33,207 bases of DNA from Leptolyngbyaceae cyanobacterium T60_A2020_046 (GTDB lineage Bacteria; Cyanobacteriota; Cyanobacteriia; Phormidesmidales; Phormidesmidaceae): NCBI GenBank assembly GCA_015272155.1, contig JACYME010000114.1, forward strand, positions 1-33,207, written 5' to 3'. Every line of letters begins with the position of its first letter. Within the stretch, counting starts at the first letter, position 1. The notes under the pieces are model-generated. The model was not told where the DNA came from and ran no database searches. It saw only the letters and a program-made list of their open reading frames with translations. Below are positions 3,374 to 22,765 of this stretch, piece after piece. The position numbers and the translations under genes were made by a program.

Positions 3374-4276
3374 ATGGTTATGTCTGCGATCGCAACGTTC
3401 ATACCAGTCTTCCCGCTCTTGATGACCTCTGAAATCGCCCAGGGCCTTTCAATCTGGCAGTCCATTATGGTGGGCATTGTTCAGGGCATTACGGAGTTTT
3501 TGCCCATTAGCAGCACCGCCCATATCAAAATGGTGCCCGTGGTGTTGGGCTGGGGCGATCCGGGGGTCGCGTTTACAGCGGTGGTGCAGCTCGGCAGCAT
3601 TGGGGCGATTCTCAGCTACTTTTGGACCGATGTGAAAACGGTGTGTCAGGGCATTGGGCGCGCGATCGCCCATCGCCAGTTTGAAGACGCCGATTTCCAA
3701 GTCGGGCTGGGTATTTTGGTCGGCACCCTGCCGATTGTGGTCTGTGGTCTGTTGCTCAAGTTTTTTCTGCGGGAAAGTTATGAAACCCTGGCGCGGGGTT
3801 CTGTGGTGATTGGCGTTACCTCCATTGCCTTGGCGGTGCTGCTGGGGGTGGCAGAGTGGCGGGGCAAGCGTCATCGCGGCTACGACAAAGTGGGTCTGTG
3901 GGATGGCATTGGCATGGGATGGGCCCAGGCGCTGGCGTTGATTCCTGGGGTGTCGCGATCCGGGGCGACCATCACGGCGGGGCTGTTCATGGGGTTTGAT
4001 CGCGCCACGGCAGCGCGATTTTCCTTGTTGATGGGGATTCCCGCGATCGTCTTGTCTGGCATTGCGGAACTCGACGAACTATTTGCCCCAGATTTTCAGA
4101 TGGGGGCAGCAGCGATCGCGGCGGGCGTGATTTCAGCCGCCATTTCTTCCTACATTGCCATCTACTGGCTGCTTCACTTTCTCAGAAACCACACCACTTG
4201 GGTGTTTGTGTTTTATCGCATTGCCTTTGGTACAGCGATTTTGTGGGGCGTCGCCAGCCAAAAAATCCCCAACTAA
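3374..4276 (+). CDS. uppP: Undecaprenyl-diphosphatase UppP (BacA family)
   Basis: UppP dephosphorylates undecaprenyl diphosphate to regenerate the lipid carrier for peptidoglycan and other envelope glycans, and confers bacitracin tolerance. Numbered from the ATG at 3374 (300 aa), the family motifs are clear: QGITEFLPISSTAH (37-50), which contains the (E/Q)xxxE catalytic pair Q37/E41 and a conserved His, and PGVSRSG (191-197), the second active-site motif with its Arg. There are about eight hydrophobic segments. The first acidic position is Gln instead of the Glu of E. coli, a known variant. The frame stays open upstream to a weak start at 3287, but those extra residues are hydrophilic and unlike UppP. 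A second ATG at 3380 is equally possible. Confidence 0.93.
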   Translation: MVMSAIATFIPVFPLLMTSEIAQGLSIWQSIMVGIVQGITEFLPISSTAHIKMVPVVLGWGDPGVAFTAVVQLGSIGAILSYFWTDVKTVCQGIGRAIAHRQFEDADFQVGLGILVGTLPIVVCGLLLKFFLRESYETLARGSVVIGVTSIALAVLLGVAEWRGKRHRGYDKVGLWDGIGMGWAQALALIPGVSRSGATITAGLFMGFDRATAARFSLLMGIPAIVLSGIAELDELFAPDFQMGAAAIAAGVISAAISSYIAIYWLLHFLRNHTTWVFVFYRIAFGTAILWGVASQKIPN

Positions 4277-4611
4277 ACCCTGTACCAGAGAATATCGCAG
4301 CGATCAGAGGCGGGTTCGGAAGGGGCGAGGCCCTCGGCGGGCGGCAGTCCTGTAGGGCAACGCATACTCGGAAAATTTGACCTCACCGAGTGCCCAAGTC
4401 CTGCCTGGGGCATCCTCACAGCGGCTCTGCTGTCTAATCTCCAGCGGCAGAGCCACCCCTAGGGACTCCCAGCCAGAGGCTAGGAGCCAGGGATCTCGGG
4501 AGAGTTCAGGAGTATGCGTTTGCCCTGGGCAGTCCTGCCTAGAATTAAGGTGCGCACGTCTTTGCGGTGTACTATTTTCTGTTTGGGGAGCGTTGACCCA
4601 CGGATATTGCC
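4277..4611. repeat. Gene-free structured element with nested inverted repeats
   Basis: The 335 bp between uppP and the DUF512 gene hold no convincing protein. An imperfect long inverted repeat frames most of it: AGGGCAACGCATACTC at 4354-4369 matches the reverse complement of 4510-4526 with a single extra T. Inside, GGCTCTGC and GCAGAGCC form a hairpin around 4424-4454, and CTCGG pairs with CCGAG near 4367-4388. The words AGTCCTG or GTCCTGCC recur three times (4346, 4398 and 4531 regions). This looks like a folded dispersed element (MITE-like or REP-like) or a structured RNA. The DUF512 promoter may lie in the last 80 bp. The identity is inferred from structure only. Confidence 0.5.
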
Positions 4612-6027
4612 ATGAGCCAATCCACCATTCAACCGGCTGTTGTGACACGAGTGTTGCCGGACTCGATCGCGGAGGAAATTGGCTTTGAAGCGGGCGATCG
4701 CCTCGTTTCCATCAACGGTCAGCGGCCCCGCGACTTGATCGACTATCAGTTTCTCTGCGCCGATGAGGAACTGATTTTGGAAGTGGTCGATCGCACGGGC
4801 AAGGCCCACACCGTCGAGCTTGAAAAGGACTACGACGAAGATCTGGGCCTGGAGTTTGAAACGGCCCTCTTCGACGGTTTGATCCAGTGCAATAACCGCT
4901 GCCCCTTTTGCTTTATCGACCAACAGCCGCCCGGCAAGCGCGAAACCCTCTATCTCAAAGATGACGACTATCGGCTGAGTTTTCTATACGGCAGCTATCT
5001 GACGTTGACCAACCTGACCCCGCGCGAATGGGATCGCATTGCCGCGATGCGCCTATCGCCCTTATTCGTCTCCGTCCACGCCACAGAGCCGGAGGTGCGA
5101 TCGCGGCTGCTCAAAAATCCCCGCGCGGGTGAACTGCTGTCTCACCTCGCGTGGTTTCAGGAACAGCGGCTGCAAATCCACGCCCAAGTGGTGGTCTGCC
5201 CCGGCATCAACGACGGCTCGCACCTGACGCGCACCCTGCACGATCTGGCTCGCTTCCACGGCGGTGATGTTCCTACCGTGGCCTCGGTGGCGGTAGTGCC
5301 CGTGGGTTTGACCCGCTTTCGTCCCCGCGAGGATGAGCTGATCCCCGTATCGTCGGCTAAGGCGAGGGAGGTGATTGATCAAGTGCAGCCCCTCCAAGCG
5401 GAGTTTCGTCAACGCTTTGGCACGACCTTTGCCTGGTTGGCAGATGAGTGGTTTTTGATTGCACGGCGATCGCTGCCCACAGCGGCGGATTATGAAACCT
5501 ACCCTCAGCTTGGCAATGGGGTAGGCTCCATTCGCCAATTTTTGACGGAGTTTGAGGACGCGGCCACCCTGTTACCCACTGAGGTCAATCCGCCGCGCCA
5601 CTACACCTGGGTGGTGGGCAATGCGGTGGAGCACGCCTTTCAGCCCATTGTGGAACGGTTTAATGCTATCCACGGCTTGCACGTTTCGTTGGCGGCGCTA
5701 AATAGCGACTACTGGGGCCAAGAGATTACCGTGACCGGGCTGCTGACGGGGCACGACCTGCGGCATCATCTGCACGATCGCGCCTTGGGCGACGGCATTC
5801 TGCTACCGACGGTGATGCTCAAGCCCAACGATTCCGGCGATCGCCAAACCTGGCAGTTCCTCGATGACCAACGCGTGAGCGAGGTGAGCCAGACCCTTGA
5901 CGTTCCGATTCACCCCGTTGAGGGCATTTCAGGCCTGATTGCAGCCTGTCTTCAGCCAGAGCCAGAGAAAAATTCCGAAACCGCCCCTAATCGCCGATTG
6001 CGTCCTTTATCCTTAGAAACGGAGTGA
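4612..6027 (+). CDS. PDZ/DUF512 FeS protein, radical-SAM-like (cyanobacterial family)
   Basis: This 471-aa protein starts with a PDZ-like segment (residues about 8-60, VLPDSIAEEIGFEAGDRLVS). A CX3CX2C cluster motif follows at C93, C97 and C100 (CNNRCPFC), typical of radical-SAM iron-sulfur binding. The LSFLYGSYLTLTNL and VSVHATEPEVRSRLLKN stretches and the DUF512-type C-terminal half fit a family annotated as a putative FeS-containing cyanobacterial oxidoreductase. The reaction is unknown. The ATG at 4612 gives a complete PDZ module. Its TGA (6025-6027) overlaps a GTG that could begin the outer-membrane protein gene, suggesting co-transcription. I am sure of the family and not of a function. 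Confidence 0.88.
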   Translation: MSQSTIQPAVVTRVLPDSIAEEIGFEAGDRLVSINGQRPRDLIDYQFLCADEELILEVVDRTGKAHTVELEKDYDEDLGLEFETALFDGLIQCNNRCPFCFIDQQPPGKRETLYLKDDDYRLSFLYGSYLTLTNLTPREWDRIAAMRLSPLFVSVHATEPEVRSRLLKNPRAGELLSHLAWFQEQRLQIHAQVVVCPGINDGSHLTRTLHDLARFHGGDVPTVASVAVVPVGLTRFRPREDELIPVSSAKAREVIDQVQPLQAEFRQRFGTTFAWLADEWFLIARRSLPTAADYETYPQLGNGVGSIRQFLTEFEDAATLLPTEVNPPRHYTWVVGNAVEHAFQPIVERFNAIHGLHVSLAALNSDYWGQEITVTGLLTGHDLRHHLHDRALGDGILLPTVMLKPNDSGDRQTWQFLDDQRVSEVSQTLDVPIHPVEGISGLIAACLQPEPEKNSETAPNRRLRPLSLETE

Positions 6028-20095: not shown

Positions 20096-20168
20096 GCGTC
20101 CTTAGTTCAGTTGGTAGAACGCAGGTCTCCAAAACCTGATGTCCGGGGTTCGAGTCCTCGAGGGCGCG
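20096..20168 (+). tRNA. trnW: tRNA-Trp (anticodon CCA)
   Basis: The 73-nt cloverleaf is complete. The acceptor stem is GCGTCCT/AGGGCGC with one G-U, the D arm GTTC/GAAC, the anticodon stem CAGGT/ACCTG with loop CTCCAAA (anticodon CCA at 20129-20131), and the T arm CGGGG/CCTCG with loop TTCGAGT. The discriminator is G, the tryptophan identity base. The 3' CCA is not encoded. The gene lies between rplS and secE. Confidence 0.97.
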
Positions 20169-22459: not shown

Positions 22460-22765
22460 GTTTGCTTGATATCAAGATTTCACTGACTGGATTCTCACCC
22501 TGTTGAGGTTTATCTAACTCAAAACCTTTCACAACTGAATCAATCAAAGCCAAAGACAGCAGGGGCTAATTGAGTGCTGAAAAATCCTGCCGAGGTGGAT
22601 GACGCGATCGCAACTCACACACTAGGTTATGTGTGAATTGTTAGTTCTCGCCTGAGCCCCGGCCTGCACGCTGGGGCTTTTTGCTGAGATTGATGCAGAT
22701 GAATGGTGAGGAATCTAAGTGGAACAAGCTTCGTGAGTATCCCTGGGAAAAGGAGGTGAGACAAG
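22460..22765 (+). promoter_or_regulatory. rplJ leader region (possible L10 autoregulatory leader)
   Basis: This 306-bp gap has no gene and carries several stems upstream of rplJ: TTGAG/CTCAA near 22503-22523, CACAC/GTGTG near 22616-22634, and a terminator at 22655-22682. It ends with the strong Shine-Dalgarno AAAGGAGGTGA before the rplJ start. A leader with an internal terminator is how Bacillus rplJL is regulated by the L10-L12 complex. A similar mechanism here is inference. Confidence 0.5.
22655..22682 (+). terminator. Intrinsic terminator/attenuator before rplJ
   Basis: AGCCCC (22655-22660) pairs with GGGGCT (22673-22678), followed by a run of Ts continuing to 22682. It either ends the rplA transcript or works as an attenuator in the rplJ leader. 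Confidence 0.7.

Follow-up and report, generated by a model that had tools for sequence, protein, structure and literature searches.

A probable ISAs1-type MITE relic with a REP-like palindromic core between uppP and a DUF512 gene in a Leptolyngbyaceae cyanobacterium

The non-coding 175-bp element found between uppP and the DUF512 gene, at 4353-4527 of the window (the whole 33,207-nucleotide stretch of DNA that was analysed), is very probably the relic of an ISAs1-type MITE. The first-pass annotation had offered three readings of this region, of which the MITE/REP-like one is borne out by multiple copies, TIRs, 10-bp duplications, the REP-like core and the presence in relatives of a partner that bears a transposase, whereas the structured RNA and the leader of the DUF512 gene are not. 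In this way a strongly folding gap is explained as transposon debris, which removes a false regulatory-RNA candidate, and a MITE is tied to ISAs1 ends in cyanobacteria.

Layout of the element and its copies in the genome

The gap from the uppP stop (4276) to the DUF512 start (4612; the gene names are those of the first-pass annotation) is 335 bp long, with a GC content of 0.60. The order from 5' to 3' is uppP, element, DUF512 gene, such that the element precedes the DUF512 gene on the same strand, and the element plus its duplications take up only about half of the interval 4277-4611 that was first flagged. On either side of it stands the same 10-bp sequence, GGCAGTCCTG, in direct orientation and without a mismatch, at 4343-4352 (left target-site duplication, with its boundary set against the other copies) and at 4528-4537 (right target-site duplication, also placed by copy comparison), and the end of the right duplication is 74 bp away from the DUF512 start codon. 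The left TIR (TAGGGC-AACGCATACTC; 4353-4369, plus strand) reads TAGGGCAACGCATACTC, which is the family consensus TAGGGCAAACGCATACTC minus one base. The right TIR (4510-4527, minus strand), identified by copy comparison and inverted-repeat match, reads GAGTATGCGTTTGCCCTG, or CAGGGCAAACGCATACTC on the minus strand. The two arms share a perfect 11-bp core (4359-4369/4510-4520), and the right arm has one extra base; the imperfect inverted repeat with an extra base that had been reported earlier is thus confirmed, with arms at 4353-4369 and 4510-4527. The recurring AGTCCTG word was also correctly noticed. It occurs three times (4346, 4397 and 4531), the first and third occurrences being explained by the 10-bp duplication, as they are within the GGCAGTCCTG copies, and the second being internal, in a hairpin arm.

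Between the TIRs, all on the plus strand, are the MITE left arm (GGAAAATTTGACCTC..., 4370-4386), which is common to other copies in the genome, an internal palindromic, REP-like module (4387-4491) and the MITE right arm (4492-4509), delimited by the alignment of copies. The module is matched at 4387-4491 by the covariance model R2 and at 4389-4495 by the model R1, and in the A2 consensus fold it has three hairpins: GTGCCCAAGTCCTGCCTGGGGCAT at 4390-4413, GCGGCTCTGC...GCGGCAGAGCCAC at 4421-4456 and CTCCCAGCCAGAGGCTAGGAG at 4466-4486. The element is short, has paired TIRs and lacks a transposase gene, as expected of a MITE.

The strong self-complementarity of the region, remarked on in the first-pass annotation, holds up when the fold is calculated: for one strand of 4340-4545 the predicted energy is -101.6 kcal/mol, compared with -78.65 +/- 4.75 kcal/mol for 200 dinucleotide shuffles, corresponding to a z of -4.83, and 0 of the 200 shuffles are as low.

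A whole-assembly search of the blastn type yields 13 matches, and a TIR pattern search adds more. Ten related places are found when the window is included, six of them two-ended (window, C145, C174, C78, C104 and C10), such that the element is multi-copy. The remaining ones are partial or decayed: C113 is without the 3' end, C46 is without the 5' end and some of the middle, of C1 only the 5' end is left, and C96 has decayed. C104 and C46 are internal-deletion forms, and a copy having the arms without the core was not found among the copies. Over the aligned stretches the identity to the window copy is 72-96%, the lowest value being for a match of the palindromic part in the opposite orientation. 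The other copies adjoin other genes elsewhere in the genome. No ORF of at least 100 amino acids overlaps four of the five two-ended copies other than that of the window; the C104 copy is overlapped by one mechanical ORF. The C10 copy (L012 1700-2100, G000:C10) abuts an ORF that may resemble an IS1-type InsB transposase. As a separate observation, the MITE 5' ends of C113 and C1 (L005 and L009) have common flanking DNA, including the start of the neighbouring gene; because this DNA is common to both, it is probable that the flank and the MITE end were copied as one piece.

When the boundary is fixed at the outer TIR base and the 10-bp flanks of the six two-ended copies are compared, the flanks match at 10 (window), 8 (C145), 7 (C174), 10 (C78), 2 (C104) and 4 (C10) of the 10 bases, that is at 7-10 bases for four of the six copies. 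The identities sum to 41 versus a mean of 20 when the flanks are re-paired, a sum that is reached in 0.135% of the permutations. C104 and C10, with two and four matching bases, respectively, have no in-register 10-bp duplication; by eye, a possible shifted 8-bp repeat (7/8) is seen for C104 and none for C10.

It could be argued that the structure arose by chance in a GC-rich gap, in agreement with the GC content of 0.60, but this is extremely improbable, considering that the fold is better than those of 200/200 shuffles, that the TIRs are accompanied by a perfect duplication and that the second-best place in the own-genome search has an E-value of 1.6e-35. The whole-genome copy search proposed in the first-pass annotation has thus, by finding further copies, refuted chance structure.

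ISAs1-family ends and the orthologous gap in relatives

The exact TIR core, AGGGCAAACGCATNCTC, is found in 41 of 388 genomes of the class, the backward control being 0 in every row listed. In four of these genomes (G254, G032, G374 and G337) forward and reverse copies of the TIRs are separated by about 1.2 kb, with an ISAs1 transposase between them; in G254 this protein is matched by PF13808/PF01609 and also by NCBIfam NF033564 ('ISAs1 family transposase') with an E-value of 2.4e-129. Among nine TIR-bounded stretches from relatives an exact 10-bp duplication is present in six and a one-base-shifted duplication in a seventh, and the stretches of 1055 bp and 857 bp have no 10-bp duplication. The six include a 142-bp MITE of G330 with the same ends; MITEs have thus arisen from these ends in another genome as well. 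According to a 2025 paper (PMC11946415), ISAs1 ends are 14-22 bp long and start with CAGGG, with a 10-bp duplication, and the right end of the window element, CAGGGCAAACGCATACTC, together with its 10-bp duplication, fits the definition given there. The left end, TAGGGC-AACGCATACTC, deviates from CAGGG at the first base, like some of the full-length relatives.

The sharing of ends with an autonomous element is observed in the relatives and not in the genome of the window element itself. A profile search of seven genomes with positive controls matches an ISAs1 transposase in six of them and not in the own genome, and a protein query of the own genome, run without a control, gives none either; the own assembly consists of 250 contigs, such that this absence is not final. 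The element is thus a MITE without a visible helper in the present genome. The 11 places in the own genome with an exact or one-mismatch TIR are all at least 1 kb from a contig end, and nothing therefore points to a copy that went missing where the assembly is broken. There is also no ISAs1-type DDE transposase inside the 175 bp, so the window element is not itself an IS of the ISAs1 family.

In the full-length elements that were read, the inner arms are unlike the MITE arms, and a direct parent was not found. A scan of the genome collection, from which the own genome was possibly excluded, with the subterminal word AACGCATNCTCNGAAAATTT gives nine stretches, none of them cyanobacterial by title; nine matches are about what chance predicts for 18 specified bases (our estimate is about 7), and the MITE arm is therefore not seen elsewhere. 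A follow-up of the MITE in plasmid records gave no match, and in the literature, for which the full-text coverage was partial, nothing was found that joins ISAs1, target site duplication and MITE.

The orthologous site was compared using DUF512 loci, of which 30 were returned from 39 genomes searched, one being the window's own. The uppP gene is directly upstream of the DUF512 gene in 24 of the 29 loci of relatives, and in five it is not found within the flank examined. The uppP-DUF512 gaps of the 24 relatives are 26-267 bp long (below 80 bp in 19 of the 24), and the TIR core is found in the gap of none of these 24 readable relatives. The window gap minus the element and one duplication would be 150 bp, a length similar to the 135-136 bp of the gaps in G001 and G014. 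Conservation thus extends to the two genes and not to the element between them; the insertion is private, from which it follows that the element is not a conserved leader.

It is very improbable, in spite of the strong predicted fold (z -4.83) and of the position in front of the DUF512 gene on the same strand, that the element is a structured RNA or an untranslated leader that regulates this gene. It is missing from the orthologous gap in 24/24 relatives, copies are located next to other genes elsewhere in the genome, no Rfam family is matched at E <= 1 within 4200-4700, and there is no covariation within the MITE family (one double-change pair, a count that 283 of 500 shuffles attain). In addition, 74 bp separate the end of the second duplication from the start codon, the promoter scan of 4200-4700 finds no promoter-like site, and the sole terminator-like site in this region is on the opposite strand. 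Neither conservation in the orthologous gap nor covariation of the stems was observed, and the regulatory leader RNA was rejected. Elsewhere in the window, an Rfam L10 ribosomal leader (RF00557) is at 22532-22692 and a tRNA is at 20096-20168.

The palindromic core repeat

The core of the ISAs1-type MITE relic belongs to a repeat family that also occurs outside MITEs. R1, built from five MITE-borne copies, matches in 16 of the 59 genomes examined and R2, the second covariance model of the core repeat, in 24 of 59, the own genome included in both cases; the matched repeats are dispersed and presumably extragenic. The 22 R1 loci from relatives that were read are free-standing, typically bounded by CT...(G/C)AG, and 0 of the 22 have an exact TIR core within 200 bp. 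The free-standing repeat is about 105 bp long with a constant core, GGCTCTGCC/GGCAGAGCC (rows including L161, L162, L163, L164, L176 and L177), and in G056 three equal-scoring R2 copies are present at a spacing of about 180 bp (G056:C1:2049245-2049715). The module is also found in the own genome at places without a good TIR nearby (C113:11986, C151:1456 and C167:9267, with a best TIR agreement of 10-12 of 17); the one at C113:11986 may be a MITE remnant.

In the free-standing alignment A3, which comprises 16 of the 22 loci, at least one double change is seen in 18 of 30 pairs, and 92% of the cells pair, a percentage that is inflated by the selection of the rows with a structure-bearing model; none of the five covariation measures is attained by a single one of 500 shuffles. 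The core word GGCTCTGCC is constant, and the letters of the outer stems vary almost without restriction. The five MITE-borne copies are flat in the same test (one double-change pair, matched in 283/500 shuffles), five rows giving little power, and the covariation term is unfavourable in their consensus folds. Strong stem covariation in the free-standing repeats and none in the MITE-borne ones is a natural contrast on what maintains bacterial palindromes.

These data also bear on the possibility that the element is purely a repeat of the REP/BIME type that owes its mobility to a Y1 (RAYT) transposase, with an incidental outer inverted repeat. The core at 4387-4491 does belong to a palindromic family found alone in relatives, and a core-type repeat is within 500 bp in 3 of the 40 Y1-transposase loci fetched (L199, L200 and L201; Y1_Tnp, RAYT-like), which may suggest a link, most loci being without it. 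However, the outer TIRs are identical to ISAs1 ends and have 10-bp duplications next to them, and the exact TIR core is within 200 bp of 0/22 free-standing repeats, which makes this alternative very improbable. Y1 genes are also present in many genomes without the core repeat.

The sixteen Y1 proteins that were translated are, by eye, highly alike. Of 16 loci (L199-L206 and L211-L218), 13 also have, as judged by eye, at least part of a conserved stretch 3' of the Y1 stop codon (GGTGCCAGGTAACGGATCG...GCTACAGTTCACAAGTCTGGATGCGAGAGAAGAG), which occurs as well where the genome lacks the palindromic repeat; it could be the right end of an element or a non-coding RNA.

In the literature, of which the coverage was partial, the core word GGCTCTGCC was not found described as a cyanobacterial repeat; the core repeat family may be the part that is new, and it is apparently unnamed. 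As a kind of mobile DNA the MITE is ordinary, and more interest attaches to the core repeat family.

Origin of the element and comparison with known systems

The observed ends, target duplication and partner element point to a transposition event in which an ISAs1-family transposase, once present in the lineage and acting in trans from a full-length element that is now gone, would have recognised the 17/18-bp inverted ends, and the insertion of the 175-bp DNA into the uppP-DUF512 gap would have duplicated 10 bp of the target. The window copy is presumably now immobile and decaying, since the transposase is absent and the copies have diverged. The middle of the element, being homologous to a separate REP-like repeat family, would be a captured member of it, and in the simplest reading there are two possible orders of events: an ISAs1-type MITE captured the repeat, or the repeat inserted into the MITE.

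Somewhat more tentatively, and slightly short of probable in our estimation, the element may be a chimaera of an ISAs1-type MITE and a captured, widespread cyanobacterial palindromic repeat (about 105 bp, with three covarying hairpins), whose hairpins would be kept when it is free-standing, possibly needed by a Y1 transposase or another partner, and would have lost this constraint in the MITE, where they would be copied passively by a different transposition system. In a readthrough transcript, if there is one, the hairpins would come after uppP and before the DUF512 gene, and any effect on the uppP-DUF512 transcript would probably be incidental. No evidence was seen for a role beyond self-propagation, and the intergenic mRNA is expected to be affected incidentally at most.

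The closest comparison is with the ISAs1-family IS (NF033564; PF13808 + PF01609), which have the same (T/C)AGGGC ends of 17-18 bp and the same 10-bp target duplication, and the ends of the window element bound intact transposase genes in relatives. The window element differs from these in its length of 175 bp, in the absence of the transposase gene and in its inner arms, which are unlike those of the full-length elements read. REP/BIME/REPIN sequences (PMC3733652 and PMC12306157) resemble the core in being GC-rich dispersed palindromes, and the core also stands alone; the core differs in its length of about 105 bp and in its three consensus hairpins, and the core words GCTCTGC/GGCAGAG are absent from the main text of PMC12306157. 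With the bacterial MITEs of the review PMC10969869 the element shares that it is short, non-coding, mostly intergenic, present in several copies and strongly folded, with paired TIRs and direct repeats; in contrast, its ends are tied to ISAs1, a name absent from the main text of that review. The MITEs of Anabaena sp. 90 are likewise cyanobacterial, 77-541 bp long and mostly intergenic, and, as described in PMC3542288, its authors found no IS in that genome with ends that match them, whereas for the window MITE relatives reveal the IS family to which the ends correspond.
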